DNA of 64,000 nt from Streptomyces sp. JJ66 (GTDB lineage Bacteria > Actinomycetota > Actinomycetes > Streptomycetales > Streptomycetaceae): the NCBI RefSeq assembly GCF_019303495.1, contig NZ_JAEVFI010000001.1:62001-126000 (forward strand), written 5' to 3'. The translations under genes and the position numbers were made by a program. How positions within the stretch are numbered: the first letter of the stretch is position 1; each line of letters begins with the position of its first letter. Positions 46,636 through 63,752 of this stretch are shown in pieces. The notes under the pieces are model-generated. The model was not told where the DNA came from. It was given only the letters and a program-made list of their open reading frames with translations, and ran no database searches.

Positions 46636-46716
46636 GAGTCTTCACTTCCGGAACGGACACGTCAAGAGTCCCCCGGGCTGGGCGGGGGCGAAGTGGGGGA
46701 GATTAGAGGTTTCCAC

Positions 46717-46731
46717 AAAATGGATCATTTT
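46717..46731. promoter_or_regulatory. Second inverted repeat in the allB/IclR region
   Basis: AAAAT (46717-46721), a 5-nt GGATC centre, and ATTTT (46727-46731). It is overlapped by TCCA-N5-TGGA at 46712-46724. It may be a second site for the IclR protein or for another regulator; it does not share the TCAAC core. Confidence 0.35.
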
Positions 46732-46904
46732 TTTCGCATCACGGAATGTAGTTCCGGCTAGCGGGGGCACCGATGAGCACGCGGCAGAACTGGACAAACG
46801 CCCCGGACCGGCGATAACCCCATGGTGGGGGCCCTGCGACCGGTCCGCCCCGGACGGCTGTGGACCGGTAGCATGCGCCCCATCCGGCCGAAAGGAAACG
46901 CGAC

Positions 46905-47723: not shown

Positions 47724-47729
47724 GAGCAC

Positions 47730-47768
47730 AGCCCGGCGCCCCGGAGCGCAACTCCGGGGCGCCGGGCT
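47730..47768 (+). terminator. 17-bp hairpin after the IclR gene
   Basis: A perfect 17-bp stem (47730-47746 with 47752-47768) and a 5-nt loop, 7 nt beyond the stop. The next gene must have its own promoter. Confidence 0.75.
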
Positions 47769-47780
47769 CGTTGACCGGGT

Positions 47781-48263
47781 GTGCCTGTCAAGCCGACCCC
47801 CGCCCGAGCCGCCGCCCTAACCGGTACCGCCCCCGCCACGGCCCGAACCGGTGCCGCCCGGCGCACCGGCACCCGGCTCACCGCGCTGCTGGCCGCCACC
47901 CTGGTGTGCGGTGGCATCCCGGGCCCGGCCCGGGCGGCCGGCGCCTGGGAGCACCTGTTCCTGACCGTGGGCGGCGCGGACGCCACCTGGGTGCGCGGCG
48001 TCGAGCTGCGCTGCGACCCCGCCTCGGGCTACCACCCGCGCGCGGAGCAGGCGTGTGCCGCGCTGGCCGCCGCCCACGGCGACATCGCCAGCATCGCGAC
48101 CCCGGACGACGCCTACGCGGGCGCCCGCCGGTGCGGCCGTGCGCCCGACCCGGTCACCGCCACGGCGTCCGGCTCCTACCGGGGGCGCCCGGTCCAGTGG
48201 CGTGCGAGCTACCCGAGCCCGTGCTTCCTGCACGCCGACACGGGTTCGCTGTTCCGCTTCTGA
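47781..48263 (+). CDS. Secreted subtilisin-inhibitor-like protein (SSI family)
   Basis: 160 residues with a Sec signal (RLTALLAATLVCGGIPGPARA, cleaved near 51-52) and a mature part matching SSI: LFLTVGGADATWVRGVELRC, HPRAEQACAALAAAHGDI, and the C-terminal YRGRPVQW...SLFRF. The four mature Cys (78, 92, 118, 147) match the two SSI disulfides. Aligning C118-G-R-A-P with C-P-M-V-Y of SSI makes Arg120 the P1 residue, which predicts inhibition of trypsin-like proteases rather than subtilisin. The GTG start is provisional. Confidence 0.8.
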   Translation: MPVKPTPARAAALTGTAPATARTGAARRTGTRLTALLAATLVCGGIPGPARAAGAWEHLFLTVGGADATWVRGVELRCDPASGYHPRAEQACAALAAAHGDIASIATPDDAYAGARRCGRAPDPVTATASGSYRGRPVQWRASYPSPCFLHADTGSLFRF

Positions 48264-48275
48264 AGGGCCGGGCGC

Positions 48276-48608
48276 TCAGCCGCGCGGTGGCGGTGCGCCG
48301 AACAGGGCTATGGCTCCGCGCAGCTCGCCCAGCGGCTCGGCGAGCGCGCTGACCGAGCCCAGCGCGCTGACGGTGAGCAGCAGGGCGTGCCGCAGCCGGG
48401 TCAGCTCTACCGGTCCGGCGGCCATCGCCTCGATCACCGCCAGCTGCTCCTCGGCCACGTCCCGGTCAGCCAGTGTCCCGGGATGCGCGGCCAGCTCGCG
48501 GCCCATCCGGGACACGGCCAGCCGCAGGGCCGCGATGCGGGGATCGGCCGCCACGCCGACGGTCTCCGCCCGCCACGCACGCTGGTGCCGCACCGCTGTC
48601 GGTTCCAT
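48276..48608 (-). CDS. Small conserved protein (DUF5955-like)
   Basis: 110 residues, predicted all-helical with Leu/Ala heptads (IAALRLAVSRMGRELAAHPG, LRHALLLTVSALGSVSALAE). No signal or TM segment. It resembles a small Streptomyces family without known function. The ATG at 48608 has GCGAGG about 9 nt upstream; a longer frame upstream looks non-coding. Confidence 0.55.
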   Translation of the reverse strand: MEPTAVRHQRAWRAETVGVAADPRIAALRLAVSRMGRELAAHPGTLADRDVAEEQLAVIEAMAAGPVELTRLRHALLLTVSALGSVSALAEPLGELRGAIALFGAPPPRG

Positions 48609-48948
48609 CGAATCGCCTCGCAACGTCTGTCCCCACCTGGAAGCCGGCTCGAATCGCGCATGCTCAACATCCCGCCTCCCGTGGCGGTGGTCAGCCGCCG
48701 GAGGCTGGGGAGGGACAGTAAACGCCACCCTCCGCGCATACGTCCACACGGATTGCTAAAACCAGCCGCGCCCCGGGCGCCGGTCAGCGCCGTCACCCGA
48801 GGACGCCTCAGCACAGGCCGCCTCCCCCAGGCAGCGGGCCCGCGTCCCTACTCGGCCGAAAATCTCCAACACCGGCCAGCGGACGCTCCCCCGCGCAACG
48901 AAACGCACAGCGCCGCCCTCCGCGCGCGCCGCCTGACGCCCCACCCGG
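48609..48948. other. 340-nt intergenic region without recognised features
   Basis: It lies between the P450 stop and the small helical protein's start (both minus). No conserved reading frame, strong hairpin or clear promoter was found. Confidence 0.45.
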
Positions 48949-50277
48949 TCACCTCCCCGGTGGCGGCGCGGCCGGTGGGCTGAAGGTGAACGGGAGGGAG
49001 CGGACGCGGTGGTCGAAGGTGGAGGGGGCCAGGACCGGTGGCGCGGTGGCCCGGATGTCCGGGGTGCGGGTCAGCAGTTCGCGCAGGAGGGCCGTCATCT
49101 CCCGTTTCGCCAGGTGGGCGCCGAGGCAGTAGTGGGGGCCGCCTCCGCCGTAGCCGAGGTGGGGGTTGGGGGCGCGGGTGATGTCGAAGGTGTGCGGGTC
49201 GGGGAAGACGGTCTCGTCGCGGTTGGCGGAAGCGAAGAAGAGGACCACCTTGTCGCCGGGGCGCAGCAGGCGTCCGCCGATGGCGTACTCGGTGGCCACG
49301 GTACGGCGGAACTGGATGATCGGAGTGGCGTGGCGGACGATCTCGTTCACCGCGCCCTCGGCGTGACGCTCGAAGTCGGCTGCGAGCAGGGCGCGTTGTC
49401 TGGGGTGGTCGGTAAGCAGGGTGAGGCCGTGGGCGAGCGCGTTCCGGGTGGTCTCGACACCGGCGACCATGAGGAGGGAGAAGAAGGCGCCGAGCTGGCG
49501 GGCGGTGAGTGCCTGTCCGTCGAGGTCGGCGTGCACCAGGGCGGATACCAGGTCGCCGGTGGGGTGGCGGCGACGCTCCCGCGCGAGCCGCCCGATCATC
49601 CACCGCATCCGGGCGAGCGCGCGCAGGCCCTTGCCCGGGACGCGCAGCCGGGAGCGGGCGACGCCGATGTTCTCCGACGCGTGGTTGACGCGGGCCAGGA
49701 TCTCGGGGCGGTAGCGGTCGGGGATGCCCATCATGGTGCAGATGACCTCGAACGGCACCCGGGACGCGACAGCGGTGACGAAGTCGGCGGGCCGCTCGGC
49801 GATCATCGCGTCCACGGTGCGGGCGCACACGGTGTCGATATCACGCTCGGCGTCGGCGAGGACGCGCGGTGAGAAGGCCCGGGAGACGGTGCGGCGCAGG
49901 CGGGCGTGCTCGGGGTCGTCGAGGTTGACCATGGAGTCACCGAACAGGGCGCGCACCCAGCGGGCCGGTTCGGGCGTGGTGACGCCGGGCGCGCTGACGA
50001 AGACACGCGGGGTGCGGCTGGCCTCGACCACGTGGGCGTGCCGCACGAGGGCGTAGACGTCGCGTCCGGTGGCGGGATCGGTGAGCCGGGCCGGGGCCTC
50101 CAGGCGGCGCAGGGCGGCGAAGGCGGCGTGCTGGGCGGCCGGTGGCTGGTGCCAGAAACGGGGGTCGGTGGGGTTGGTGAGGAGGGGCGGGGCGCTGGTG
50201 GGGGAAGGGGCCACGGGTGTCGCGTGCGGGGTCATGGGGCTGGTGGGTGGCGTGGGTGTCATGGCCGTCATGGTCAC
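48949..50277 (-). CDS. Cytochrome P450
   Basis: 442 residues. The I-helix oxygen-binding motif is SLLMVAGVETTRNAL (near 268), ExxR is EIVR (near 315), and the heme loop is LGYGGGGPHYCLGAHLAKRE with Cys near 386. MVNLDDPEHARLRRTVSRAF is typical of the CYP124/125/142-like group acting on branched lipids or steroids, but the substrate is not certain. The first ~30 residues are Thr/Pro-rich with several start codons; the GTG at 50277 is the longest option. It is not next to redox partners. Confidence 0.82.
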   Translation of the reverse strand: MTMTAMTPTPPTSPMTPHATPVAPSPTSAPPLLTNPTDPRFWHQPPAAQHAAFAALRRLEAPARLTDPATGRDVYALVRHAHVVEASRTPRVFVSAPGVTTPEPARWVRALFGDSMVNLDDPEHARLRRTVSRAFSPRVLADAERDIDTVCARTVDAMIAERPADFVTAVASRVPFEVICTMMGIPDRYRPEILARVNHASENIGVARSRLRVPGKGLRALARMRWMIGRLARERRRHPTGDLVSALVHADLDGQALTARQLGAFFSLLMVAGVETTRNALAHGLTLLTDHPRQRALLAADFERHAEGAVNEIVRHATPIIQFRRTVATEYAIGGRLLRPGDKVVLFFASANRDETVFPDPHTFDITRAPNPHLGYGGGGPHYCLGAHLAKREMTALLRELLTRTPDIRATAPPVLAPSTFDHRVRSLPFTFSPPAAPPPGR

Positions 50278-50324
50278 CGGCGGCCGGGCGCGGGGCGGGT
50301 CAGGCGCTCCGTAGGGTCAGGGGC

Positions 50325-50936
50325 ATGGACGAGCGGGAGCGTGGGAATCGGGTGGCCGGGCTGCTGCTGGCGGCCGGGGGCGGGCGCCGGCTGGGCGGCC
50401 GGGCGAAGGCGCTGCTGCCGTACCGGGGGCGGCCGTTGGTGGAGCACGCGGTGCGCACGCTGCGGGCGGGCGGCTGCGGGCCGGTGTACGTGGTGCTGGG
50501 CGCGGCGCGGGAGCGGGTGCGCGCGGAGGCGGAGCTGGCGGGGTGCGTGGTGCTGGACAACCCGCGGTGGGAGGAGGGCATGGGCTCGTCGCTGCGGGTG
50601 GGCCTGCGGGCGCTCGGCGGAAGCGCCGCGCACACCGAGGCGGCGCTGGTGGGTCTGGTGGACCAGCCCGGGATCGGCGCGGAGGCGATCGCCCGGGTAC
50701 GGTCGGCGGCGAGCGGCCCCGGCGTGCTGGCGGCGGCGGCATACGGCGGGGAACGCGGGCACCCGGTGCTCCTGGGTGCCGCACACTGGGCCCCGGTCGC
50801 CCAGACGGCGGCCGGTGACCGGGGTGCGCGGGCGTACCTGCGCGCGCACGCGGCAGCGCTTACGTTGGTGGAGTGTGCGGATGTGGCCGATCCGGGTGAT
50901 ATCGACACACCGGAGGACCTGAGGCGGCTGGCGTGA
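50325..50936 (+). CDS. MobA-like NTP transferase (molybdenum cofactor type)
   Basis: 203 residues. It begins RVAGLLLAAGGGRRLGGRAKAL, the nucleotide-binding loop of the MobA/MocA family, then PLVEHAVRTLRAGGCGPVYVV, ALVGLVDQPGI and HPVLLGAAHW. In xanthine dehydrogenase systems a homologue cytidylates molybdopterin. That would suit the purine genes nearby, although no xdh gene is in the window. The ATG at 50325 gives a clean family start. Confidence 0.75.
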   Translation: MDERERGNRVAGLLLAAGGGRRLGGRAKALLPYRGRPLVEHAVRTLRAGGCGPVYVVLGAARERVRAEAELAGCVVLDNPRWEEGMGSSLRVGLRALGGSAAHTEAALVGLVDQPGIGAEAIARVRSAASGPGVLAAAAYGGERGHPVLLGAAHWAPVAQTAAGDRGARAYLRAHAAALTLVECADVADPGDIDTPEDLRRLA

Positions 50937-50959
50937 CGCGGCTCGCCGCGAGGAACGTC

Positions 50960-50999
50960 TCTCGACATCGTCTTTCTCGATGTCATCCATCTCGACATC
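50960..50999. repeat. Repeated TCTCGACATC boxes before malate synthase
   Basis: TCTCGACATC occurs at 50960-50969 and 50990-50999 (30-bp offset). Between them lies the inverted form CGATGTC (50978-50984), pairing with GACATCG (50964-50970). Probably a regulator site cluster; the protein is unknown. Confidence 0.4.
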
Positions 51000-51014
51000 A
51001 ACAAACTATTGAAG
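50996..51014. promoter_or_regulatory. AllR-like operator at malate synthase
   Basis: TCAAC (50998-51002), six bases, TTGAA (51009-51013): the same core and spacing as the allB operator. It lies about 170 nt before the malate synthase ATG, in an AT-rich patch. Confidence 0.55.
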
Positions 51015-51183
51015 TTCCACTATGAGGAAACTAGGCTCCATTTCCGAAGGCGTGTGGCACCCCGTGCCGCATGCGTGTACCACGAGCACGGAAGTCCGGC
51101 GGCCCAGCCCACCGGCCCCTTACCCTCAAGGGGGCAGCAGCGTGGCCAGGGTCGGTTCGGAGACCCAAGAGGAGTGACAGCCC

Positions 51184-52806
51184 ATGTCCGCACCAGCGCC
51201 GTCACCGCTGGCCATCGTCGATGTCGATCCCCGCCAGGCTCCCGCCCGGCAGGACGAGGTGCTGACCGAAGCGGCGCTGACCTTCGTCGCCGCGCTCCAC
51301 GAGCGGTTCACCCCGCGCCGCGACGAGCTGCTCGCCCGCCGCGCCGAGCGCCGCGCCGAGATCGCCCGCACCTCCAGCCTGGACTTCCTCCCCGAGACCG
51401 CGCACATCCGCGACGGCGACTGGCAGGTGGCCCCCGCGCCGCCCGCCCTGGAGGACCGCAGGGTCGAGATCACCGGTCCCACCGACCGGAAGATGACCAT
51501 CAACGCGCTCAACTCCGGGGCCCGGGTCTGGCTCGCCGACTTCGAGGACGCGTCCGCTCCCACCTGGGAGAACGTCATCGGCGGTCAGGCCAACCTGATC
51601 GACGCCTACGAGCGCCGCATCGACTTCACCGACGCCCGCGGCAAGTCCTACGCCCTGCGGCCCGACGCCGAGCTGGCCACCGTCGTCATGCGCCCGCGCG
51701 GCTGGCACCTGGAGGAGCGGCACCTGCGCATGGGCGACCGTCCCGTCCCCGGCGCCCTCGTCGACTTCGGGCTCTACTTCTTCCACAACGCCCAGCGCCT
51801 GCTGGACGCGGGCAAGGGCCCGTACTTCTACCTGCCGAAGACGGAGTCGCACCTGGAGGCGCGGCTGTGGAACGACGTCTTCGTCTTCGCCCAGGACTAC
51901 CTCGGCATCCCGCGCGGCACCGTGCGCGCGACCGTGCTCATCGAGACGATCACCGCCGCGTACGAGATGGAGGAGATCCTCTACGAGCTGCGCGAGCACG
52001 CCTCCGGCCTCAACGCGGGCCGCTGGGACTACCTGTTCTCCATCGTCAAGAACTTCCGGGACGGCGGCGAGAAGTTCGTCCTGCCCGACCGTAACGCCGT
52101 GACGATGACGGCCCCGTTCATGCGCGCCTACACCGAACTGCTGGTGCGCACCTGCCACAAGCGCGGCGCCCACGCGATCGGCGGCATGGCCGCGTTCATC
52201 CCCAACCGCCGCGACCCCGAGGCCAACGAGCGGGCGCTGGCCAAGGTCAAGGCCGACAAGGACCGCGAGGCCGGGGACGGCTTCGACGGCTCCTGGGTCG
52301 CCCACCCCGACCTGGTGCCAGTGGCGCGCGCCTCCTTCGACGCGGTGCTCGGCGACAAGCCGAACCAAAAGGACCGGCTGCGCGAGGACGTGCGCGTGGC
52401 CGCCGGTGACCTCATCGCCATCGACTCACTCGACGCCCGCCCGACCTACCAGGGTCTGGTGGACGCCGTGCAGGTCGGCATGCGCTACATCGAGGCGTGG
52501 CTGCGCGGCCTGGGCGCGGTGGCCATCTTCGGCCTCATGGAGGACGCGGCGACGGCGGAGATCTCCCGCTCGCAGATCTGGCAGTGGGTGGACGCGGGCG
52601 TCGTCTTCGCCGACGGCCGCACGGTGACGGCCGACCTGGTGCGCGAGATCGCGGACCGCGAGCTGGCGGCGGTGCGCGCGGAACTCGGCGCGGAGGCGTT
52701 CGCCGCAGGCCAGTGGCAGCAGGCGCACGACCTGCTCCTGCGCGTCTCGCTCGACGCGGACTACGCCGAGTTCCTCACCCTCCCGGCGTACGAACTGCTG
52801 GGCTGA
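51184..52806 (+). CDS. aceB: Malate synthase A
   Basis: 540 residues, the A-isoform length (G-isoforms are near 720). It has [52 protein letters not shown] and [20 protein letters not shown]. It condenses glyoxylate with acetyl-CoA to malate, consuming the glyoxylate released from ureidoglycolate. AGGAG precedes the ATG. The shared operator core suggests co-regulation with allantoin genes. Confidence 0.94.
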
Positions 52807-52888
52807 GGCCGCTCGCTGGGCGAACGCCCACCCGGTTCGGCTGCCCCGCCGTCCGGGGGCATCTCCCCACCGGTACTGGGCTCCGCCC

Positions 52889-52930
52889 CTGGCCCCGACT
52901 GCCGCGCCCTCGTGCGGCAGTCGGGGCCAG
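52889..52930. terminator. 17-bp bidirectional hairpin between malate synthase and iolG
   Basis: A perfect 17-bp stem (52889-52905 with 52914-52930) and an 8-nt loop, 83 nt past the malate synthase stop, followed by GTCTTTCCT. It can serve both converging transcripts. The rest of 52807-53089 is non-coding. Confidence 0.7.
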
Positions 52931-53089
52931 GTCTTTCCTCCGCAGGCCCACCCTGTCTGGGAGTGAGCCCCGCCCTGGGGCCGTGGGCCGGGCGACGCCC
53001 CCGGTGGCAAAGCCACAGGGAGATTGGGCCAGCCGCCCCTGGTTCGCAAGAAGACGGGGTGGAGCCCCGGCCGGAGGCTTGGGGAAGGG

Positions 53090-54088
53090 TCAGGGGCTCA
53101 CCCGTACCGGGCGCTCCGCGCGGCGGGACTCCTCGCACGCTTCCGCGACGCGCAGCGCCCGCAGCGCCTCCCAGCCGTCGCACGGGTTGGCCCGCTCGCC
53201 CCGGACGAGGGCCACGAACGCAGCGAGCTGGGCCGCGTACGCCGGGCCGAACCGCTCCAGGAACCCCGGCCACGGCGGGCCCGCGCGCCCCGGCGCCGTG
53301 GGCTCCACCGACGTCAGCGGCGTGCGCGGGCCGAGCCCGACGGCGATCGTCTCCCGCTCCCCCGCCAGCTCCATGCGCACGTCGTACCCGGCGCCGTTCA
53401 TCCGCGTCGCCGTCGCCGTGGCCAGCGTGCCGTCGTCCAGCGTGAGCACGGCCGCCGCGGTGTCCACGTCCCCGGCCTCGCGGAACATCGCGGGCCCCGC
53501 GTCCGAGCCGACCGCGTGCACGGTCACCACCTCCCGCCCCGTCACCCAGCGCAGGGCGTCGAAGTCGTGCACCAGGCAGTCGCGGTAGAGCCCGCCGGAC
53601 AGCGGCAGGTAGCCCGTGGGGGGCGGCGCCGGGTCGGCGGTGAGCGCCCGCACGGTGTGCAGGCGGCCGAGGCGGCCGGAGCGCACGGCCTCGCGCGCGG
53701 CGGCGTACCCGGCGTCGAAGCGGCGCTGGAAGCCGATCTGGAGCACGGCGCCCGCCGCCGCGACCTCGTCCAGCACGGTGAGCGTGCCCGCCAGGTCGGC
53801 CGCGAGCGGCTTCTCGCAGAACGCGGGCACCCCGGCCCGGGCGGCGGCGACGATCAGCTCCGCGTGCGCGGTGGTGGACGCCGCGATAACGACGGCGTCC
53901 ACCCCGGCGGCGAGCAGGTCGGCCGGGGTGGGCAGGGCGTGAGCTCCGTCGCCGACGGCGGAGGCGACGGCGCCCGCGCGCGCGGGGTCCGCGTCCGCCA
54001 GGAGAAGCTCGCGCACGCCGGGCAGGTCCCGGAGCGTGCGGGCGTGGAAGGCACCGATGCGGCCGGTGCCGAGGAGTCCGATACGCAC
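53090..54088 (-). CDS. iolG: Inositol 2-dehydrogenase (Gfo/Idh/MocA family)
   Basis: 332 residues. The Rossmann start is MRIGLLGTGRIGAFHARTLR. The catalytic EKP is in PAFCEKPLAADLAG, and GFQRRFDAGYAAAREAV, with DCLVHDFDALRWVTG (Asp-x-x-x-His-type ligands), follows. It oxidises myo-inositol to 2-keto-myo-inositol. It follows iolD by 73 nt on the same strand, so it belongs to the iol operon. Confidence 0.87.
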   Translation of the reverse strand: MRIGLLGTGRIGAFHARTLRDLPGVRELLLADADPARAGAVASAVGDGAHALPTPADLLAAGVDAVVIAASTTAHAELIVAAARAGVPAFCEKPLAADLAGTLTVLDEVAAAGAVLQIGFQRRFDAGYAAAREAVRSGRLGRLHTVRALTADPAPPPTGYLPLSGGLYRDCLVHDFDALRWVTGREVVTVHAVGSDAGPAMFREAGDVDTAAAVLTLDDGTLATATATRMNGAGYDVRMELAGERETIAVGLGPRTPLTSVEPTAPGRAGPPWPGFLERFGPAYAAQLAAFVALVRGERANPCDGWEALRALRVAEACEESRRAERPVRVSP

Positions 54089-54161
54089 GGGCTTTAAACC
54101 TTCTTTCGCTGGTCGTTGGGTGGTCCCGGGGCGGGTGTCCGCTGCCCTCCATCAGCGGCGT

Positions 54162-56042
54162 TCACAGGTGGCGGCGGCGGGCGGACACCTGGCGGTCGTA
54201 CGCGGGGCGGGCCGCGCGGGCGGCGGCCCGGGTGGCGGTGGCGGCGACGGGCACGTCCCACCACGCCTGCGCCCCGGGCGCGGTGGGAGCCGGGGCGGTC
54301 TCGACGTGGACGCAGGTGGGCCGGGTGGAGGCGCGGGCGGTGGCCAGCGCCTCGCGCAGCTCGCCCAGGGTGGCGGCGCGCAGCACGTCCAGGCCGAGCG
54401 AGGCGGCGTTCGCGGCGAGATCGACGGGCAGCGGGTCGCCGGTGTAGGTGCCGTCAGCGGCGCGGTAGCGGTAGGCGGTGGCGAAGCGCTCGCCGCCGAC
54501 CGCCTCCGACAGCCCGCCGATGGAGGCGTATCCGTGGTTCTGGATCAGGACGACGTTGAGGTTCACCCCTTCCTGGACGGCGGTGACCAGCTCCGTGGGC
54601 ATCATCAGGTACGTGCCGTCGCCGACGAGCGCCCACACCGGTGTGCCGGGCGCGGCCAGCCGGACGCCGAGCGCGGCCGGGATCTCGTAGCCCATGCAGG
54701 AGTAGCCGTACTCCACGTGATACTGGCGCGGGGAGCGGGCGCGCCACAGCTTGTGCAGGTCACCGGGGAGGGACCCGGCGGCGCCCACCACGACGTCCGT
54801 GTCCCCGACGGTGGCGTCCAGCGCGCCGAGCACCTGCGTCTGGGTGGGCCGGGCGGCGGCGTCCCCGGCGTAGGCGGCGGTCACCTGGCGCTCCCAGCGC
54901 TCCCTGGCCGCGCGGTACTGTGCGGCGTAGGCCGTCTCCACCCGGTGTCCGGCGAGCGCCTCACCCAGCGCCTCCAGCCCGGTGCGGGCGTCGGCGACGA
55001 GGGCGGTGGCGGAGAGCTTGTGCGCGTCGAAGGGCGCGATGTTGAGGTTGACGAAGCATACCCCGGGGTGGGCGAAGAGGGTGCCGGAGGCGGTGGTGAA
55101 GTCGGTGTAGCGGGTGCCGACGCCGATGACGAGGTCCGCGGTGCGGGCGAGGTCGTCGGCGGTGGCGGTGCCGGTGTGGCCGATGCCGCCGACGTCGGCG
55201 GGGTGGTCGTGGCGCAGCGAGCCCTTGCCCGCCTGGGTGGAGGCGACGGGAATGCCGGTGGCGTCGGCGAGGGCGCGCAGGGCGTCCTCGGCCTCGCTGT
55301 GGTGGATGCCGCCGCCCGCGATCAGCAGCGGACGGCGCGCGGACCGGATCGCGGTCACCGCCTCGGCGAGCGCGCCGGGTTCGGGCAGCGGACGGCGCAC
55401 CGGCCACACCCGGTCGGCGAAGAACTCCGCGGGCCAGTCGTGTGCCTCGGCCTGCACGTCCTGCGGCAGGGCGAGGGTGACGGCGCCGGTTTCCCCCGGG
55501 TCGGCGAGCACCCGCACGGCCTGGAGCGCGGCGGGGATCAGCGCTTCGGGGCGGGTGACGCGGTCGAAGTGGCGGCAGACGGGACGCAGGGCGTCGTTGA
55601 CGGAGACATCACCGGCGTAGGGCACTTCGAGCTGCTGCAGGACGGGGTCGGCGGGGCGGGTGGCGAAGGTGTCGCCGGGCAGCAGCAGCACGGGCAGCCG
55701 GTTCACGGTGGCGAGCGCGGCGCCGGTGACGAGGTTGGTGGCGCCGGGCCCGATCGACGTGGTCACCGCCTGCGCGCGCAGCCGGTTGGTGTGCCGGGCG
55801 TGGGCGACCGCGGCATGCACCATGGCCTGTTCGTTGCGGCCCTGGAGGAACGGCATGCGGTCCTGGTACTCCAGCAGCGCCTGCCCGAGCCCGGCGACGT
55901 TGCCGTGGCCGAAGATGCCCCAGGTGGCGCCGATCAGCCGGTGCCGCCGCCCGTCCCGCTCGGTGTACTGGGCGGCGAGGAAGCGCACGAGCGCCTGCGC
56001 GACGGTGAGCCGGTGGCTGCGGGCGGGCGCGGGCGGCGTCAA
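54162..56042 (-). CDS. iolD: 3D-(3,5/4)-trihydroxycyclohexane-1,2-dione hydrolase
   Basis: 626-residue ThDP enzyme opening the inositol-derived ring. It has GATWGIFGHGNVAGLGQALL, with the ThDP Glu region following, AVTTSIGPGATNLVTGAAL, and the ThDP-Mg motif in PVWALVGDGTYLMMPTELV followed by NVVLIQNHGYASIG. The stop of iolB overlaps its start by 4 nt. Confidence 0.92.
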   Translation of the reverse strand: MTPPAPARSHRLTVAQALVRFLAAQYTERDGRRHRLIGATWGIFGHGNVAGLGQALLEYQDRMPFLQGRNEQAMVHAAVAHARHTNRLRAQAVTTSIGPGATNLVTGAALATVNRLPVLLLPGDTFATRPADPVLQQLEVPYAGDVSVNDALRPVCRHFDRVTRPEALIPAALQAVRVLADPGETGAVTLALPQDVQAEAHDWPAEFFADRVWPVRRPLPEPGALAEAVTAIRSARRPLLIAGGGIHHSEAEDALRALADATGIPVASTQAGKGSLRHDHPADVGGIGHTGTATADDLARTADLVIGVGTRYTDFTTASGTLFAHPGVCFVNLNIAPFDAHKLSATALVADARTGLEALGEALAGHRVETAYAAQYRAARERWERQVTAAYAGDAAARPTQTQVLGALDATVGDTDVVVGAAGSLPGDLHKLWRARSPRQYHVEYGYSCMGYEIPAALGVRLAAPGTPVWALVGDGTYLMMPTELVTAVQEGVNLNVVLIQNHGYASIGGLSEAVGGERFATAYRYRAADGTYTGDPLPVDLAANAASLGLDVLRAATLGELREALATARASTRPTCVHVETAPAPTAPGAQAWWDVPVAATATRAAARAARPAYDRQVSARRRHL

Positions 56043-56920
56043 CGGGCCTCCTCGTAGAACGGCAGCCGGGCGTCGGCGGTGTCCGCCCGCCAGGTGGTGC
56101 GGACCCAGGCGTGGTCGGGGTGGTCCTGGATGAGCCAGGCCCGCTGCGGGCCGGGGCCCGCCATTACGTTGAGGTAGTACAGGGCGTGCCCGGGGGTGGC
56201 GATGGAGGGGCCGTGCCAGCCGTCGGGGATGAGTACGGCGTCCCCGGTGCGGACCTCGGCCAGCACGTCGGTGCCGAAGCCGTGGCCGGAGGGGGTCACC
56301 CGCTGGTAGCCGACCCCGGGGGTGTCGCCGTGCGGGGCGACCTCGAAGTAGTAGATCTCCTCCAGCTGTGACTCCTCGCCGGGGCGGTGTTCGTCGTGCT
56401 TGTGCGGCGGGTAGGACGACCAGTTGCCGCCCGGGGTGAGCACTTCGACGGCGATGAGCCGGTCCGCGTCGAAGACGTCGGCGGCGGCGAAGTTGTTGAC
56501 CTGCCGCGAGCAGTTCCCGGCGCCCCGCAGCTCGACGGGGACGCCGGAGGCCGGGCCGTAGCGAGCGGGCAGGCGGCGCTCGCAGCGGGCCCCGGCGAGC
56601 GCGAACCGGCCCCCGGCGGCGCTGGTCAGTGTGACGGCGGCGTCCCGGGGGGCGTAGGCGAAGTCGGTGACGGAGGTGAACACGCTGTCACGGCCGTCCA
56701 GGGTGAAGCGCCGCCCGTCGGTCTCGACCGCGCAGGCGCCGCTCAGCGGGAGCACGATCCACTCGCTGGGACCGGTGTCGAAGGTGAACGGCGTGTGCGG
56801 GCCGAGTTCGAGTACCCGCAGGGAGCTGTGGCTCCAGCGGGCCGTCTGCGGATCGACGGACAGGGCGTAGGGGCCGGTGGCGGCACTGCCAGCGGGCAGG
56901 TGGAAACGCGTGTGGCTCAT
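56039..56920 (-). CDS. iolB: 5-deoxy-glucuronate isomerase
   Basis: 293-residue double-cupin. Metal-site motifs are SSYPPHKHDEH and LEEIYYFEV near residues 170-195, and DAVLIPDGWHGPSIATPGHALYYL near residue 240. It converts 5-deoxy-glucuronate to 2-deoxy-5-keto-gluconate. The ATG at 56920 gives the family start MSHTRFHLPAGSAAT; upstream codons are Arg-rich and non-conserved-looking. Confidence 0.9.
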   Translation of the reverse strand: MSHTRFHLPAGSAATGPYALSVDPQTARWSHSSLRVLELGPHTPFTFDTGPSEWIVLPLSGACAVETDGRRFTLDGRDSVFTSVTDFAYAPRDAAVTLTSAAGGRFALAGARCERRLPARYGPASGVPVELRGAGNCSRQVNNFAAADVFDADRLIAVEVLTPGGNWSSYPPHKHDEHRPGEESQLEEIYYFEVAPHGDTPGVGYQRVTPSGHGFGTDVLAEVRTGDAVLIPDGWHGPSIATPGHALYYLNVMAGPGPQRAWLIQDHPDHAWVRTTWRADTADARLPFYEEAR

Positions 56921-56984
56921 GCGGCCAAGCCTTCCCCATCGCGGAGCCGCCCACCGGGCGTGGCGCGGTGCGCCGTGCCGCCGG

Positions 56985-57944
56985 TCACGGCGCACCGGTG
57001 GCCAGCAGCACCTCGACCTCGGCGGCGGTGGGCATGGCCGCCGAGCAGGCCAGGCGGGCGGCGACGTGGGCCCCGGCCGCGTTGGCGTACCGCATCACCC
57101 GCTCCAGCTCCCAGCCGGCGAGCAGCCCGTGGCACAGGGCGCCGCCGAACGCGTCCCCGGCGCCGAGTCCGTTGACGACCTCCACCGGGTGGGGCGGAAT
57201 CTCGGCGGTGGTGCCGTCCCGGTGCGCCGCGAGCACCCCGCGCGGCCCCTGCTTGACGACGGCCAGCTCCACACCCGCGTCCAGCAGCGCCCGTGCGCAG
57301 CCCACGGGGTCCCGCTCGCCGGTGGCCACCGCACACTCGGTCAGGTTGCCGACGGCGACGGTGGCGTGGGCCAGCGCCTCCCGGTAGAGCGGGCGGGCGG
57401 CGCACGGATCGGCGCCGGCCCAGAACACCGGGCGCCAGTCGAGGTCGAACACGGTGGGGCCGCGCCGGGCGCGGGCGGCGAGTGCGTGCAGGGTGGCGGC
57501 GCGGCTGGGCTCCGCGCACAGGCCGGTGCCGGTCATCCAGAAGACGCGGGCCGCGCGGATGGCGCCGAGGTCGAGTTCGCCGGGGTGGATCTCCAGGTCG
57601 GGTGCCGTGGGCTGGCGGTAGAAGTACAGCGGGAAGTCATCGGGCGGGAAGACCTCGCAGAAGGTGACGGGCGTGGGGTAGGCGGCTACCGGTGTCACCC
57701 AGCGGTCGTCCACGCCGAAGTCCGCGAGCGCCTGGTGGCAGTACGCGCCGAACGGGTCGTCGCCGGTGCGGGTGATGACGGCGGCGGAGCGGCCGAGGCG
57801 GGCGGCGGCCACGGCGACGTTGGTCGCGGAGCCGCCGAGGAACTTGCCGAAGGTCTCCACCTGCGGCAGGGGTACGCCGGTCTGCAACGGGTAGAGGTCC
57901 ACACCGATGCGGCCCATCGTGATCACGTCCAGTGGCTCGTTCAT
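56985..57944 (-). CDS. iolC: 5-dehydro-2-deoxygluconokinase
   Basis: 319-residue PfkB-family kinase. It has ITMGRIGVDLYPLQTGVPL, FLGGSATNVAVAAARLGR and the ATP/anion-hole signature VNGLGAGDAFGGALCHGL. It phosphorylates 2-deoxy-5-keto-gluconate in inositol breakdown. It is the first gene of the minus-strand iol set and starts next to a repeat-rich divergent region. ATG start at 57944; longer frames run into the repeats. Confidence 0.88.
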   Translation of the reverse strand: MNEPLDVITMGRIGVDLYPLQTGVPLPQVETFGKFLGGSATNVAVAAARLGRSAAVITRTGDDPFGAYCHQALADFGVDDRWVTPVAAYPTPVTFCEVFPPDDFPLYFYRQPTAPDLEIHPGELDLGAIRAARVFWMTGTGLCAEPSRAATLHALAARARRGPTVFDLDWRPVFWAGADPCAARPLYREALAHATVAVGNLTECAVATGERDPVGCARALLDAGVELAVVKQGPRGVLAAHRDGTTAEIPPHPVEVVNGLGAGDAFGGALCHGLLAGWELERVMRYANAAGAHVAARLACSAAMPTAAEVEVLLATGAP

Positions 57945-58027
57945 CGTGCCCTTTCCGGCGGACTGTGGTACTTCCCCCAGGTGCCTACCCCACGCGCCTG
58001 ACATCCTCGCCCCTGGGCCGTACCAGC

Positions 58028-58096
58028 GCGGACACCGTACTCGATGCGGACGCCGTACCGACGCGGACGCCGTACCGACGCGGACGCCGCACGCGC
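58028..58096. repeat. 17-bp tandem repeat block
   Basis: The unit GCGGACGCCGTACCGAC is perfect at 58046-58062 and 58063-58079. A degenerate 18-nt copy lies before it (58028-58045) and a partial copy after it (58080-58096). Confidence 0.8.
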
Positions 58097-58120
58097 GACA
58101 CGCCACGGGCGACCAGGACC

Positions 58121-58201
58121 CCGCACCCGGACAGCACGCCGCACGCGGCCAGAACACCGCACCCGGACAGCACGCCGCACGCGGCCAGAACACCGCACCG
58201 G
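58121..58201. repeat. 36-bp tandem repeat block
   Basis: Two perfect 36-bp copies (58121-58156 and 58157-58192) and the first 8-9 bases of a third, starting CCGCACCCGGACAGCACGCC. The block ends 20 nt before the downstream ATG. Confidence 0.85.
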
Positions 58202-58220
58202 CGCGGAAGGAGCACCCGCC

Positions 58221-59135
58221 ATGACCCGCCCCGGCCTCTATGCCCTCGACCGGCTCCGCGTCGGTTCGGCCCCCGACTCCTGGGGCGTGTGGTTCCCCGA
58301 CGACCCGCTACAGGTGCCCTGGGAGCGGTTTTTGGACGAGGTCGCCGAGGCGGGCTACGCGTGGATCGAGCTGGGCCCCTACGGCTACCTGCCCACCGAC
58401 CCGGCGCGGCTGACCGCCGAGACCCAGCGGCGCGGGCTGCGCGTGTCCGCGGGCACGGTGTTCACCGCGCTGCACCGCGGCCCCGGAGTGTGGGACGCCA
58501 CCTGGGAGCAGGTGGCGCGGGTGGCGGAGCTGACGCGGGCGATGGGCGCGGGGCACCTCGTCGTCATCCCGGCGTTCTGGCGCGACGACCGGACCGCCGC
58601 GCTGATCGAGTCACCGCACCTGACGCCGGAGCAGTTCCGCGCGCTCACCGGCGGCACCGAGGAGCTAGCGCGGCGCGTGCGCGAGGAGTACGGGCTCGGC
58701 GTCGTCGTCCACCCGCACGCGGACACCCACATCGACACCGAGGCCAACGTCACGCGCTTCCTGGACGCGACGGACCCCGCGCTGGTCAGCCTGTGTCTGG
58801 ACACCGGGCACTACGCCTACTGCGGGGGCGACAGCGTGCGGCTCATCGAGACCTACGGTGAACGCATCGGCTACCTGCACCTCAAGCAGGTGGACCCGGA
58901 CGTGCTCGCCGAGGTCGTGCGCGCGGGCACGCCGTTCGGCCCGGCCGTGCGGCAGGGCGTGATGTGCGAACCGCCGGGGGGCGTACCGGCGCTGGAACCT
59001 GTGCTGACCGCCGCGCAGGGCCTGGGCGTGGAGCTGTTCGCGATCGTCGAGCAGGACATGTATCCCTGCGAGCCGGACCGCCCCTTCCCCATCGCCGAGC
59101 GCACCCGCCGCTTCCTGCGTTCCTGTGGCGCTTAG
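58221..59135 (+). CDS. Xylose-isomerase-like TIM barrel (IolE/IolI-like)
   Basis: 304 residues. It has RVGSAPDSWGVWFPDDPLQV at the N-terminus, GYAWIELGPYGYLP, VVHPHADTHIDTEANVTRFL and LCLDTGHYAYCGGDSVRLI, with metal-binding Glu/Asp/His of the AP-endonuclease-2 fold. Neighbours suggest 2-keto-myo-inositol dehydratase or inosose isomerase, but general sugar isomerases look similar. GGAAGGAG sits about 9 nt before the ATG, which excludes a repeat-encoded extension. It is transcribed away from the other iol genes. Confidence 0.75.
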   Translation: MTRPGLYALDRLRVGSAPDSWGVWFPDDPLQVPWERFLDEVAEAGYAWIELGPYGYLPTDPARLTAETQRRGLRVSAGTVFTALHRGPGVWDATWEQVARVAELTRAMGAGHLVVIPAFWRDDRTAALIESPHLTPEQFRALTGGTEELARRVREEYGLGVVVHPHADTHIDTEANVTRFLDATDPALVSLCLDTGHYAYCGGDSVRLIETYGERIGYLHLKQVDPDVLAEVVRAGTPFGPAVRQGVMCEPPGGVPALEPVLTAAQGLGVELFAIVEQDMYPCEPDRPFPIAERTRRFLRSCGA

Positions 59136-59207
59136 GGCCACCGGCCGCGAGCCCCGGTCGGTGCCCGCGCACAGCATGGACCGGGGCTCGCGGGGGGGGG
59201 TGGGGCG

Positions 59208-60647
59208 TCAGTGCAGGTGGGCGGCGGCCTGCGGGGTGACCTTCGGTTCGGTGGGGGCGTCCAGGGGGGAGGGCGGCGGCTCCGCCTTGCGCGAACGCAG
59301 GTGGTTGAACAGGAGGTTGAGCAGGACGGCGAGGATACAGCCGGTGCTGATGCCGGAGTCCAGGATGATCGTCGCGCTGTCCGGGAACTGCGCGTAGAAG
59401 CCGTGCGCCATCTCCGGCGCCAGCCCGACGCCGAGGGTGACGGCGACGATGAGCGCGTTCTCGCCCTGGTCCAGGCCCGCCTGGACCAGGGTCTGGATGC
59501 CGCTGACCGCGATCGTGCCGAACAGGACGACGCCGACGCCCCCGAGGACGGGGAGCGGCACGGCCGAAACCAGCGCGGCGGCCACCGGGCACAGGCCCAG
59601 CAGGACGAGGATGGCGCCGCCGACGGCGACGACGAAGCGGCTGCGCACCTTCGACATGGCCACCAGGCCCACGTTCTGCGCGAAGGCGCTGGCCGCGAAG
59701 CCGTTGAAGACGGGGGCGACGGCGCTGCCGAGGGCGTCGGCGCGCAGACCGGCCGCGATGACCTTCTCGTCCACCGGCTTGTCCACGATCTTGCCCAGGG
59801 CGATCATGTCCGCCGTCGACTCGGTCATGATCACCAGCATCACGATGCACATCGAGATGATCGCCGGGAGGGAGAACTGCGGCGGGCCGAAGTGGAACGG
59901 CGTCGGGAAGCCGAACAGACCCGCCTCGCCCAGCTCGGAGAAGTCGGCCATGCCCAGCGGGATCGCGAGGAGCGTACCCGCGACCAGCCCGATGAGGATG
60001 GCGACCGACTGCAGGAAGCCGCGGGCGTAGCGGCGCACGGCCAGCGTGATGGCCAGGGCGATCGCGGCGAGCCCGATGTTGCCCATGGGCGCGGAGGAGC
60101 CGCCTTCACCGCCGCCGTCGGTGATCCAGCCGAACGCGACGGGCAGCAGGGACAGGCCGATGAGGGTGATGACGCTGCCCGTGACCACCGGCGGGAAGAA
60201 CCGGACCAGCTTGCAGAACCAGCTGCTGAGCGCGAAGGCGAGGAGTCCGGCGACGATGACGGCGCCGAAGATGATCGGCAGGCCCGCGCTGGCGCCCTCG
60301 GCGGCGATGATCGCGGTCATCGCGGCGACGCCGCCGAAGGAGACGCCGTTGACGAAGGGCAGGCGGGCGCCGATCTTCCAGATCCCGAGGGTCTGGAGCA
60401 GGGTGGCTATGCCGGCGGTGAAGAGGCTGGCCGCCATCAGGAGCGTGGTGTCGGCCGGGTTGAGCTGGGCGGCGGCGCCGATGACGAGCGGGACGGCCAC
60501 GACTCCGGCGTACATGGCGGCCACGTGCTGCAGGCCGCTGGTGATCATTTTCAGGGGAGGGAGGACTTCGTCGACGGGATGCCGGGCTGCCTCTGCTCGC
60601 GCGCTGTCGGTGCTGCTGGTGTTCCCGGTTCCGGGCCTGTCGGACAC
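59208..60647 (-). CDS. Nucleobase:cation symporter-2 permease (urate/xanthine type)
   Basis: 479 residues, about 14 TM helices. It has PPLKMITSGLQHVAAMYAGV at the N-terminus and VMLVIMTESTADMIALGKIV, the NCS2 signature region of xanthine/uric acid permeases, then GFAASAFAQNVGLVAMSKVR. The purine genes upstream indicate urate or xanthine uptake. It is separated from the deaminase gene by three hairpins, so it likely has its own promoter in 60648-60755. Confidence 0.87.
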   Translation of the reverse strand: MSDRPGTGNTSSTDSARAEAARHPVDEVLPPLKMITSGLQHVAAMYAGVVAVPLVIGAAAQLNPADTTLLMAASLFTAGIATLLQTLGIWKIGARLPFVNGVSFGGVAAMTAIIAAEGASAGLPIIFGAVIVAGLLAFALSSWFCKLVRFFPPVVTGSVITLIGLSLLPVAFGWITDGGGEGGSSAPMGNIGLAAIALAITLAVRRYARGFLQSVAILIGLVAGTLLAIPLGMADFSELGEAGLFGFPTPFHFGPPQFSLPAIISMCIVMLVIMTESTADMIALGKIVDKPVDEKVIAAGLRADALGSAVAPVFNGFAASAFAQNVGLVAMSKVRSRFVVAVGGAILVLLGLCPVAAALVSAVPLPVLGGVGVVLFGTIAVSGIQTLVQAGLDQGENALIVAVTLGVGLAPEMAHGFYAQFPDSATIILDSGISTGCILAVLLNLLFNHLRSRKAEPPPSPLDAPTEPKVTPQAAAHLH

Positions 60648-60755
60648 TCGGTCCTCCTGTCGGTTACTGCGCCGCTGGGGAAGCGACGGGCTTTCAGGGA
60701 GGGTGTGCGGTGTGGTGCCAGGGAGTGGGGGGTGCGGAGCGGAGGCGAAGGGGTA

Positions 60756-60858
60756 CCGGGACGGGGCGCGTACCGTAGGGCGCGCCCCGTCCCGGCCGTT
60801 CGTTCAGGGCCCCGCTCGGGCCCTGAACCACCGGCCGGGAGCCGTCCCTCCCGGCCGG
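60756..60858 (-). terminator. Three tandem perfect hairpins after 8-oxoguanine deaminase
   Basis: Stems are 60831-60841/60848-60858 (11 bp), 60802-60812/60818-60828 (11 bp) and 60756-60770/60781-60795 (15 bp). Reading the minus strand they follow the deaminase stop (60911) in that order. No other element was recognised in 60648-60910. Confidence 0.75.
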
Positions 60859-60910
60859 AGTCTTGAGATGTGGTGCGGCGGCGGCCTGGTGCCGCTTCGC
60901 GGGTGCCGCG

Positions 60911-62299
60911 TCAGGACGCCCCGGCGGCGATCCGGGCCAGGCGCTGGGCCTGGTCGCGGGTGCCGCGGGCGATGGCGTCCTCGTCCACCGTGGTGAGGTG
61001 GTGGTCCTCGACGACGGTTTTGCCGTTCACCAGGGACAGCGTCACGGGGGCCGCCGCGCCGAACACCAGGGCGGCGACCGGGTCGGCGATGGAGGAGTGG
61101 CCGATGCCGTCGAGCTTCCACAGCACCAGGTCCGCCAGCTTGCCGTTCTCCAGCGAGCCGATCTCCGCCGCGCGGCCAAGGACCTGGGCGCCGCCGAAGG
61201 TACCCAGACGCAGCGCCTGGCGGGCGTTCAGCGCGTTTTCCCGGTGCCGGCCGAGGCGGTTGATCAGCAGCGCGTTGCGCAGCTCGGTGTGCAGCTCGCC
61301 GGACTCGTTGGACGCGGTGCCGTCCACGCCGAGCCCGACGGGCACCCCGGCGGCGAGCAGGTCCGGCACCCGGGCGATGCCGGCGGCCAGGCGGGCGTTG
61401 GAAGAGGGGCAGTGGGCGACGCCGGTGCCGGTCCGGGCGAAGGCGGCGATGTCGGAGTCGTTCATGTGGACGCAGTGCGCCATCCACACGTCCGCACCGA
61501 GGTAACCCGTCGACTCGAAGTAGTCGGTGGGGCCCATGCCGAACAGTTCGTGGCAGAACTTCTCCTCCTCGACGGTCTCCGAGCCGTGGGTGTGCAGCCG
61601 CACCCCCTTGCGGCGGGCCAGCACGGCGGCCTCGCGCAGCAGCTCGGTGGTCACGGAGAAGGGCGAGCACGGCGCGGCGGCGATGTGCAGCATCGACCCG
61701 AACGACGCGTCGTGGTGGGTGTCGATGGCGGCCTCGGTCTCGGCGAGGGCCACCTCCAGGGTCTCGACGGCGAAGTCCGGGGGCAGGCCGCCGTGCGACT
61801 CGCCGCGGTCCATCGAGCCGCGGGCGGCGGTGAAGCGCACTCCCATCTCGCGGGCCGCGCGGATCTCCGCGCCCAGCAGGTCACCGGAGCCGCGCGGGAA
61901 GACGTAGTGGTGGTCCATGGCGGTGGTGACTCCGCCGCGGGCCATCATGCCCAGCGAGCCCTGGGCCGCGGAGTACACCATCTCCTCGTCGATGCGGGCC
62001 CAGACCGGGTACAGCGTGACGAGCCAGTTGAACAGGTTGCAGTCCTGGGCGAGGCCCCGGGTGAGCCACTGGTAGAAGTGGTGGTGGGTGTTGACCAGGC
62101 CGGGAGTGGCCAGGTGCCCGGTACCGTCCACGCGCCTGACGACGTGCTGAAGGCCCTCGGGAGCCGCGCCGGGCCCGACCGACTCGATGACATGATCCGC
62201 GACGACGATGTGCCCGGTGGCGTACTCGGTGTCCTCCGCGTCCACGGTGGCGATGGCGCAGTTCTCGATGACGATGCGCTCTGGCGCGGTACCAGCCAT
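60911..62299 (-). CDS. 8-oxoguanine deaminase
   Basis: 462-residue amidohydrolase. Zn ligands are in LATPGLVNTHHHFYQWLTRG near residue 70, VRLHTHGSETVEEEKF, VWMAHCVHMND, and the Asp in GLGVDGTASNESGELH. The motif set is that of the 8-oxoguanine deaminase/cytosine deaminase-like group, giving urate from 8-oxoguanine, which fits the uricase upstream. Guanine or another aminopurine is an alternative substrate. Confidence 0.83.
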   Translation of the reverse strand: MAGTAPERIVIENCAIATVDAEDTEYATGHIVVADHVIESVGPGAAPEGLQHVVRRVDGTGHLATPGLVNTHHHFYQWLTRGLAQDCNLFNWLVTLYPVWARIDEEMVYSAAQGSLGMMARGGVTTAMDHHYVFPRGSGDLLGAEIRAAREMGVRFTAARGSMDRGESHGGLPPDFAVETLEVALAETEAAIDTHHDASFGSMLHIAAAPCSPFSVTTELLREAAVLARRKGVRLHTHGSETVEEEKFCHELFGMGPTDYFESTGYLGADVWMAHCVHMNDSDIAAFARTGTGVAHCPSSNARLAAGIARVPDLLAAGVPVGLGVDGTASNESGELHTELRNALLINRLGRHRENALNARQALRLGTFGGAQVLGRAAEIGSLENGKLADLVLWKLDGIGHSSIADPVAALVFGAAAPVTLSLVNGKTVVEDHHLTTVDEDAIARGTRDQAQRLARIAAGAS

Positions 62300-62358
62300 G
62301 GGATTACCTCGTGCTTCCCATCCGTCGAGCGGTGACGCCGACGCGCGTCGGGGTCCGG

Positions 62359-62389
62359 GGGCGGCCCGCCCGGGTAGGACGGGCCGCCC
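62359..62389 (-). terminator. Hairpin between uricase and deaminase genes
   Basis: GGGCGGCCCG (62359-62368) pairs with CGGGCCGCCC (62380-62389) across 11 nt, 18 nt past the uricase stop and 60 nt before the deaminase start. It may be an attenuator within the purine operon. Confidence 0.5.
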
Positions 62390-62406
62390 TTGCGGGCTTG
62401 GGCTCC

Positions 62407-63354
62407 TTACAGGTTGGTCATGTCAACCGGGATCTGCGGCTCGGCGCCGTCCCGCAAAATGGTGGCCTCGATGAGACCGTAGGGACGGTCCGCCGCGAAG
62501 TAGACCTCGTTGTCGTTCTTCAGCCCGAACGGCTCCAGGTCCACCAGGAAGTGGTGCTTGTTCGGCAGCGAGAAGCGGATCTCGTCGATCTCACCGCGGC
62601 TGTTGATGACGCGCGCGCCCATCTGGTACAGCGTCTGCTGCAGCGACAGCGAGTAGGTCTCGACGAAAGCGTCCAGCATGTGCTGCTTGGCCTTGGCGTA
62701 GCTGCGCTCCCAGTTGGGCATGCGCTGCTCGTCGCTCGTCCAGTTGTGGCGCCACCAGCTGGTCACCTGGGTCGCCAGGATGCGGTCGTACGCCTCCTTG
62801 AGGGTGGTGTACTTGTCCTTGACGTAGCCCCAGAACTCCGAGTTGGTGGAGTTCATGACGGTCAGGTCCTTCAGGCCGGAGAAGACCTGGAAGTTCTCGC
62901 CGTCGTAGGTGACCTGCGCGGTGCGGGTCTCCTGGCCGTTGCGGACGAAGGAGTGCTGGACCTGCTCGGAGCCGATGAACTGGCCGCCGCCCCCGGAGGT
63001 GACGATCCGGTCCCAGGCGTACTCCTCGATGCGGATGCGGGCCCGCTTGATCGGCTCCTGGGACTCGACGAAGTGCCGGGCCAGGTGGATGCCGAACTGC
63101 TCGGCGGACTCGATGCCGTGCTCCTTGGCGAACGCGAACACCGTGTTCTTGGTGGTATCGGTCGGCAGGCAGTTGGCGTTGGAGCCGGAGTAGTGGACGT
63201 CGTCCATGTCGCCGGAGAGGGCGACGGAGACGTTCAGGTCCTTGATGTGGTGGGTGTCCCCCTCGCGGGTGATCTTGACAACGCGGTTCTCCGCTTTGCC
63301 GTACTGGTTCTGACCGAGAATCACCGGGCGGGCCGGGCGGGAAGTAGCAGTCAT
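62407..63354 (-). CDS. uox: Factor-independent urate hydroxylase (uricase)
   Basis: 315 residues of the T-fold uricase family. It has VILGQNQYGKAENRVVKITR, the active-site Thr in NCLPTDTTKNTVFAFAKEH, and FSLPNKHHFLVDLEPFGL. It oxidises urate to 5-hydroxyisourate. The ATG at 63354 begins 8 nt after the hydrolase gene, whose product processes the unstable product. Confidence 0.94.
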   Translation of the reverse strand: MTATSRPARPVILGQNQYGKAENRVVKITREGDTHHIKDLNVSVALSGDMDDVHYSGSNANCLPTDTTKNTVFAFAKEHGIESAEQFGIHLARHFVESQEPIKRARIRIEEYAWDRIVTSGGGGQFIGSEQVQHSFVRNGQETRTAQVTYDGENFQVFSGLKDLTVMNSTNSEFWGYVKDKYTTLKEAYDRILATQVTSWWRHNWTSDEQRMPNWERSYAKAKQHMLDAFVETYSLSLQQTLYQMGARVINSRGEIDEIRFSLPNKHHFLVDLEPFGLKNDNEVYFAADRPYGLIEATILRDGAEPQIPVDMTNL

Positions 63355-63362
63355 GTCAGGTG

Positions 63363-63752
63363 TCAGCTCCCTCGGTACACGGAGTAGCCGAACGGGTTGA
63401 GCAGCAGCGGTACGTGGTAGTGCTCGCCCGGGGTCACGGCGAAGACGATCGCCACCTCGGGGAAGAAGACACCGCTGTCCCTTACGCGGGGGGCGTCCTG
63501 CTGTTCCTCGGCTTGCTGGGTGGAGAAGTACGGCTCGACCGCGAAGTCCAGCCGCACGTGGGTGGTGCCCTCCGGCAGGGCCGGAAGGTCCTTGCAGCGC
63601 CCGTCGTCGTCGGTCTTCGACGCGCCGTGCGCGGCCCAGGCGCCGTCGCCGCCAGTGCGGACCGACAGCTGGACGGCCACGCCGCCCGCCGGACGTCCGA
63701 TGCTGGTGTCCAGGATGTGGGTGGACACCGAAGCGGTCGTCGGGGTGCTCAT
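63363..63752 (-). CDS. 5-hydroxyisourate hydrolase (transthyretin-like)
   Basis: 129 residues. The N-terminal signature is VSTHILDTSIGRPAGGVAVQ, with a middle HVRLDFAVEPYF, the PEVAIVFAV strand, and the C-terminal family tag YRGS with HYHVPLLLNPFGYSVYRGS. It forms OHCU from 5-hydroxyisourate. It sits between the decarboxylase and uricase genes, which act after and before it. Confidence 0.94.
   Translation of the reverse strand: MSTPTTASVSTHILDTSIGRPAGGVAVQLSVRTGGDGAWAAHGASKTDDDGRCKDLPALPEGTTHVRLDFAVEPYFSTQQAEEQQDAPRVRDSGVFFPEVAIVFAVTPGEHYHVPLLLNPFGYSVYRGS

Follow-up and report, generated by a model that had tools for sequence, protein, structure and literature searches.

Tandem repeats take up most of the 276-bp gap between the divergent genes iolC and iolE of Streptomyces sp. 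JJ66, which raises the question whether they are a working control element of the inositol genes or have come to fill a place from which regulation was lost. The window, i.e., the whole stretch of DNA analyzed here, comprises 64,000 nucleotides of a 4.84-Mb genome (99.98% completeness, 66 contigs); most of the same-genus genomes listed have 5.3-12.6 Mb. No near relative of this genome was found, the best IolE identity to a named genome being 84%, and no second strain of the species was found. The inositol genes and the repeats in the window are:

53090-54088, minus strand: iolG-like gene (TIGR04380, 281 bits, below the cut-off of 355)
54162-56042, minus strand: iolD (TIGR04377, above cut-off)
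56039-56923, minus strand: iolB (TIGR04378, above cut-off)
56985-57944, minus strand: iolC, 5-dehydro-2-deoxygluconokinase (TIGR04382, 366 bits, cut-off 300)
58017-58089: repeat block 1, 17-bp unit, 4.2 copies (TRF, 85% matches, score 109)
58109-58199: repeat block 2, 36-bp unit, 2.5 copies (TRF, 94% matches, score 161)
58121-58156: first perfect 36-bp copy, consisting of two 18-bp units
58157-58192: second perfect 36-bp copy, followed up to 58199 by the first 7 bases of the 36-bp unit
58221-59135, plus strand: iolE-like gene, 304 amino acids (TIGR04379, 135 bits, below the cut-off of 290; Pfam PF01261)

The start codon of iolC is the ATG at 57944, with a purine-rich site before it at 57949-57956, and the ATG of the iolE-like gene at 58221 is preceded by the ribosome site GGAAGGAG at 58205-58212. 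The iol cluster is flanked on both sides by purine-breakdown genes (44127-63752 of the window), which include those for allantoicase, allantoinase, 8-oxoguanine deaminase, urate oxidase and hydroxyisourate hydrolase. A xanthine permease and malate synthase are also encoded there, and an IclR-type regulator lies at 46905-47723 within the purine-gene stretch.

The repeats form one degenerate array

The initial annotation had placed tandem repeats between iolC and an IolE/IolI-like gene, and both the repeats and their neighbors were confirmed, the former by TRF and the latter by the family matches listed above. When the 276-bp gap was shuffled 1000 times with its dinucleotides preserved, no TRF score exceeded 90, compared with the 109 and 161 observed, so that the array is beyond chance. 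TRF does report a 17-bp and a 36-bp block, as in the original description of two different repeats, but the two are one array: positions 58018-58199 consist of ten head-to-tail units of 16-18 bp plus a 7-base piece, and most units start with CCGYAC. This motif recurs every 16-18 bp across 58018-58193 with the degenerate unit at 58103 as the sole exception, and the self-match along the array peaks at lags of 18 (0.54) and 36 (0.55). The array is thus a single degenerate GC-rich run whose iolE end was doubled into two perfect 36-bp copies. The perfect identity that had been ascribed to the repeats holds for these two copies and for one pair of adjacent 17-bp units in block 1 (58053-58069 and 58070-58086), but not for the remaining copies. 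For the two perfect 36-bp copies, a recent duplication is a reasonable interpretation.

No sigma-70-like promoter was found in the gap

By its position the array lies in what should be a divergent iol promoter region, as had been stated, but the promoter-operator block kept by most relatives (see below) is absent and no promoter-like site was detected. A consensus scan confined to sigma-70-like promoters revealed no -35/-10-like pair in or around the array, there was no TTGAC box (-35-like) on either strand of the 276-bp gap, and TANNNT matched once, on the minus strand. A terminator-like site was not found in the gap by consensus. The proposal that a change in copy number would move or multiply promoter elements is therefore unsupported. 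A structured RNA was considered and rejected, since inverted repeats were absent from the array and its predicted RNA stability did not exceed that of shuffled sequences on either strand (z 0.33 and 1.45).

It would also be conceivable that the array belongs to the iolE coding region, with a start at the ATG at 58044 and an arginine-rich N-terminal repeat. The frame is indeed open from there into iolE (363 amino acids), and the length of the 36-bp unit is divisible by three. However, the 17-bp units shift the frame, and the GC contents at the three codon positions are 0.80/0.83/0.68 in the array vs. 0.75/0.50/0.94 in the iolE-like gene, only the latter being a coding pattern. Furthermore, GGAAGGAG precedes the ATG at 58221, and in named relatives the alignment to the 304-amino-acid form starts at residues 1-11. 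Codon-position GC and the ribosome site 3′ of the array indicate a non-coding position, and we consider the extended form very unlikely. For annotators it is relevant that an automatic caller may follow the open frame and place the start 59 codons too far upstream.

Most relatives carry a promoter-operator block at this position

For comparison, loci with directly divergent iolC and iolE were collected: 26 loci including the window and 20 of 80 named ones, which after removal of three duplicates (L105, L111 and L140, duplicating L036, L035 and L038) gave 43 distinct loci. The other 60 named loci were left out because iolC was located 3.2-4.0 kb away (42 loci) or was missing from the stretch examined (18 loci). 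Also dropped before this count were L062 and L063, in which the two genes are 3.3 kb apart, and L060 to L069 and others in which both genes do not adjoin. In L063, the one wider locus examined, the first open reading frame between iolC and iolE resembles the sugar-ABC substrate-binding family NF052284 (183 bits, below the cut-off of 420), so that a transporter is likely to lie between the two genes there.

A block composed of CAGGTCTAG, CTGTCAA, TTGTCCNNACAT and CTTGACA is repeated across many of the divergent gaps. Its putative operator core TGTCCNNACAT is present with at most one mismatch in 38 of the 42 other gaps, and the array was found in none of these 42. In the window's gap, the best match to TGTCCNNACAT has three mismatches. 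Besides the window (L070), the core is absent from L055, L059, S. roseolilacinus (L107) and S. meridianus (L106), i.e., from 5 of the 43 gaps. Two stretches on the iolC side of the window's gap look, by eye, like pieces of the relatives' block and may have been left over from it:

57975-57989, minus strand: CCCCAGGTGCCTACC, possible remnant of the relatives' iolC-side promoter motif CCCCAGGTCTAGCC
57997-58004: CCTGACAT, possible half-operator remnant

The exact operator was not found anywhere in the window's genome. Two matches with one mismatch occur off the iol locus, one of which is shared with 8 of the 11 further genomes in the search; since such matches elsewhere in the genomes barely outnumber those of a reversed control pattern (0-3 per genome), single distant matches mean little. 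In most relatives with divergent iolC and iolE, the gap is best read as a bidirectional promoter with the operator TGTCCNNACAT, to which an IolR-like repressor of the GntR-UTRA type probably binds. In the titles and the opening parts of abstracts consulted, neither the TGTCCNNACAT operator nor an array of this kind is treated for Streptomyces.

The operator and a GntR-UTRA regulator are absent together

In the relative G009, a GntR-UTRA gene (PF00392, PF07702) is located 3′ of iolA (TIGR01722) on the same strand. Nine relatives other than the genome of the query have orthologues with 69-76% identity. In the window's genome, for which all 48 candidates were scored, there is no orthologue, the best match showing 34% identity. 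Across the genus, the regulator was detected at E ≤ 1e-50 in 343 of 392 genomes with 6 candidates scored per genome, and the genomes without it include that of the window (G000), G010 and G012; because of the few candidates scored, some absences, such as those in G010 and G012, are less certain than in fully scored genomes. Among the named genomes, all candidates of which were scored, 18 of 19 have the regulator, and S. roseolilacinus is the only one that lacks it. Seven of 10 relatives (G008, G009, G019, G030, G031, G034 and G113, but not G005, G018 and G035) have another match to TGTCCNNACAT, with no more than one mismatch, less than 160 bp to one side or the other of a regulator gene; in G009 it adjoins the second copy of the regulator. 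This location would suit autoregulation.

When the 43 loci were sorted by the presence of the regulator, the operator core with at most one mismatch was found in 38 of 39 regulator-positive loci and in none of the four regulator-negative ones (Fisher p 4e-5, which serves as a guide only, as the loci are related); for the exact core the counts were 37/39 and 0/4. A TTGAC box on either strand is present in all 39 regulator-positive loci vs. one of the four others. Arrays with a TRF score of at least 100 occur in two of the four regulator-negative gaps and in none of the 39. Weaker arrays (TRF 60-79) are present beside an intact operator in 5 of the 39 regulator-positive loci, showing that arrays also arise without loss of operator and regulator.

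The four regulator-negative loci are the window (L070), L059 of G010, L055 of G012 and L107 of S. roseolilacinus. In a tree of IolC plus IolE they stand apart, each beside a regulator-positive locus, and this scattered distribution suggests separate losses. S. roseolilacinus has a GC-rich array of its own, with a TRF score of 155, a different unit and a period of 24/45 bp; it covers about 150 bp on the iolC side of the gap, and the locus belongs to a different part of the gene tree. In L055, regulator and operator are gone and there is no array. An array is thus not a necessary consequence of the loss, and it is the losses of regulator and operator that form the linked pair. The iolC-iolE gap of L055 measures 72 bp, and no match to iolB, iolD or a Cgl0159-like gene was found in the 7 kb examined there. 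S. meridianus, which has the regulator and lacks the operator core, counts against the main reading given below. No intermediate stage of the loss was found among the loci compared. The window's iol genes group with L120/L119/L117 in a tree of 57 loci and beside L036 in a tree of 43 loci, both trees being without support values.

The array was not found at the iol locus of relatives, and a dispersed family lacks clear support

When positions 57900-58300 were searched against the 392 genus genomes including its own, with 2 candidates scored per genome, other genomes covered at most the last 9 array bases among the matches listed (to E of about 5e-13). In a set of 61 genomes, five others have weak matches to parts of the array (E 1e-6 to 1e-4), all of which lie away from the iol locus. 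Within the own genome, BLAST detected three weakly matching places (73-75%) beyond the locus, all of them with TRF repeats: between a large open reading frame and galE (TIGR01179), inside a predicted open reading frame, and where no clear gene was called. The gap between the large open reading frame and galE holds a second GC-rich array (L072:2614-2692, G000:C11:220613-220691) with a similar word (GCTGTCCG..GCGG) and a period of 15-33.

Scans for the units with up to three mismatches in 464 kb of the own genome and 1.25 Mb of relatives gave 21 vs. 74, 12 vs. 11 and 4 vs. 4 matches. The second pair of counts belongs to one 18-bp unit, which is about threefold denser in the own sample and forms a tandem cluster only near galE. 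Clusters of related 12-mers numbered 5 in the own sample (10.6 per Mb, a count that includes this array and two stretches added as known matches) and 8 in relatives (6.4 per Mb), and with looser settings 61 (129 per Mb) and 124 (99 per Mb). A genome-specific, dispersed functional repeat family was rejected for want of clear support, the matches being scattered and the clusters showing no clear excess over relatives. Neither units shared with other promoters nor units conserved in relatives, as would be looked for in a repeated regulator-binding (iteron-like) array, were found, only scattered single matches. Arrays with a TRF score of at least 100 are not unusual in such GC-rich genomes: the 464 kb of own sequence contain 17 (37 per Mb, with the two blocks as separate entries) and the 1.25 Mb of relatives 31 (25 per Mb). 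The period is a multiple of three in 15 of the 17 own arrays, which may be coding, and is not a multiple of three in 14 of the 31 arrays of relatives.

The inositol pathway is shortened but its enzymes are conserved

The window keeps iolC, iolB, iolD and the iolG-like and iolE-like genes. A match to the Cgl0159-like gene (PF22649), whose product we take to be the aldolase of the inositol pathway, was not found in the window's genome, compared with 72-81% identity in nine relatives other than that of the query, and the best IolA match shows 33% identity vs. 76-80% in three relatives. Eight genomes, including that of the window, were chosen because the Cgl0159-like gene is missing at the locus; all eight lack it genome-wide, whereas the control G008 has it. 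As four of the eight (G004, G015, L106 and L109) possess the regulator, the absence of the Cgl0159-like gene is not linked with that of the regulator. In these four, another enzyme may do the Cgl0159-like step. IolA was missing at E ≤ 1e-100 from the window's genome and from L109 among nine genomes, and G010 has only a homologue with 55% identity. According to the part of PMC9430895 consulted, IolA and IolJ are not counted as core genes and serve other pathways, and a working pathway is therefore still possible in the window's genome.

The mean identities of the window's proteins to those of 18 other loci are 78.9% for IolC, 81.0% for IolE, 73.3% for IolB and 78.8% for IolD, which is within the range of those loci, although the window's tip branch is the third longest of 57 in the tree of 57 loci. 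The iol enzymes thus appear to be still under selection; as they are not clearly decaying, something must still express them.

Discussion

The window has a repeat array between iolC and iolE, lacks the operator, the TTGAC boxes and the regulator, and shares an equal joint absence with three other lineages. We think it probable that the array is a minisatellite born by slippage in a promoter-operator region that had been freed from constraint by loss of the regulator. The GntR-UTRA regulator gene would have been lost in this lineage, the operator and the -35 boxes would then have been freed of constraint and have vanished, and GC-rich units would have multiplied in the iolC/iolE gap by replication slippage or unequal recombination, filling the vacated place. 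For this course we infer that the GntR-UTRA protein binds TGTCCNNACAT and is a repressor; the loss of the regulator would have preceded that of the operator, and the array would have no regulatory role.

The order of events might be reversed, such that a recent chance expansion itself destroyed the promoter and the regulator was lost later or independently. The perfect 36-bp copies do look recent and the gaps of regulator-positive loci have arrays, too, but the joint absence of regulator and operator in four loci scattered over the tree, one of which (L055) is without an array, speaks against such a course, which we regard as unlikely. About equally unlikely, in our view, is that the units are a new regulatory array, in which binding sites of a different regulator, or a promoter outside the consensus, took over from the former promoter-operator. 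The iol enzymes lie within the identity range of relatives and are thus probably expressed, the array takes up the greater part of the single gap that separates iolC and iolE, its units are regularly spaced, and one 18-bp unit is enriched in the own sample. However, neither a -35/-10-like pair nor inverted repeats are present, no relative was seen with the array at the iol locus, and a spacing of 16-18 bp does not correspond to full turns of the DNA helix. Moreover, matches elsewhere are scattered, there is little or no enrichment of the other two units, and clusters of related 12-mers are about as frequent in relatives.

Quite improbable, in our estimate, is a variant in which an IolR-like regulator was lost and the iol promoter rewired, the number of CCGYAC units now tuning a shortened pathway without the Cgl0159-like enzyme and IolA. 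An assembly artefact is hardly credible: although the genome is in 66 contigs, the copies differ from each other apart from a 36-bp pair and a 17-bp pair, the exact repeat is presumably short for typical reads, and the missing operator and regulator are independent of copy number.

The array resembles the intergenic minisatellites or VNTR-type repeats of bacteria in its head-to-tail, GC-rich, imperfect units, part of which were recently doubled, and arrays of similar score are present in its own genome and in relatives. It differs from them in occupying the place of the relatives' promoter-operator, and we do not claim it as a VNTR. With respect to the relatives' system, the closest known analogue appears to be IolR of C. 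glutamicum, which according to the parts consulted of two papers is a GntR-type repressor of inositol genes that is relieved by myo-inositol (PMC8634428, PMC12298647). The Streptomyces relatives are similar in that TGTCCNNACAT is repeated in the iolC/iolE gap and a GntR-UTRA protein is lost jointly with this motif. The C. glutamicum motif KGWCHTRACA, which did not turn up in a search of PMC8634428 and PMC12298647, fits TGTCCTGACA. Unlike the C. glutamicum system, the window lacks the operator and its genome the regulator.

Taken by itself, the array is ordinary and has more the look of filler following the loss of regulation than of a working control element; the comparison to which it led is more useful. 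The joint absence would tie a Streptomyces GntR-UTRA regulator to a defined iol operator, a pairing that is directly testable, and it suggests that this promoter-operator was lost in several lineages while the adjoining enzymes stayed conserved.
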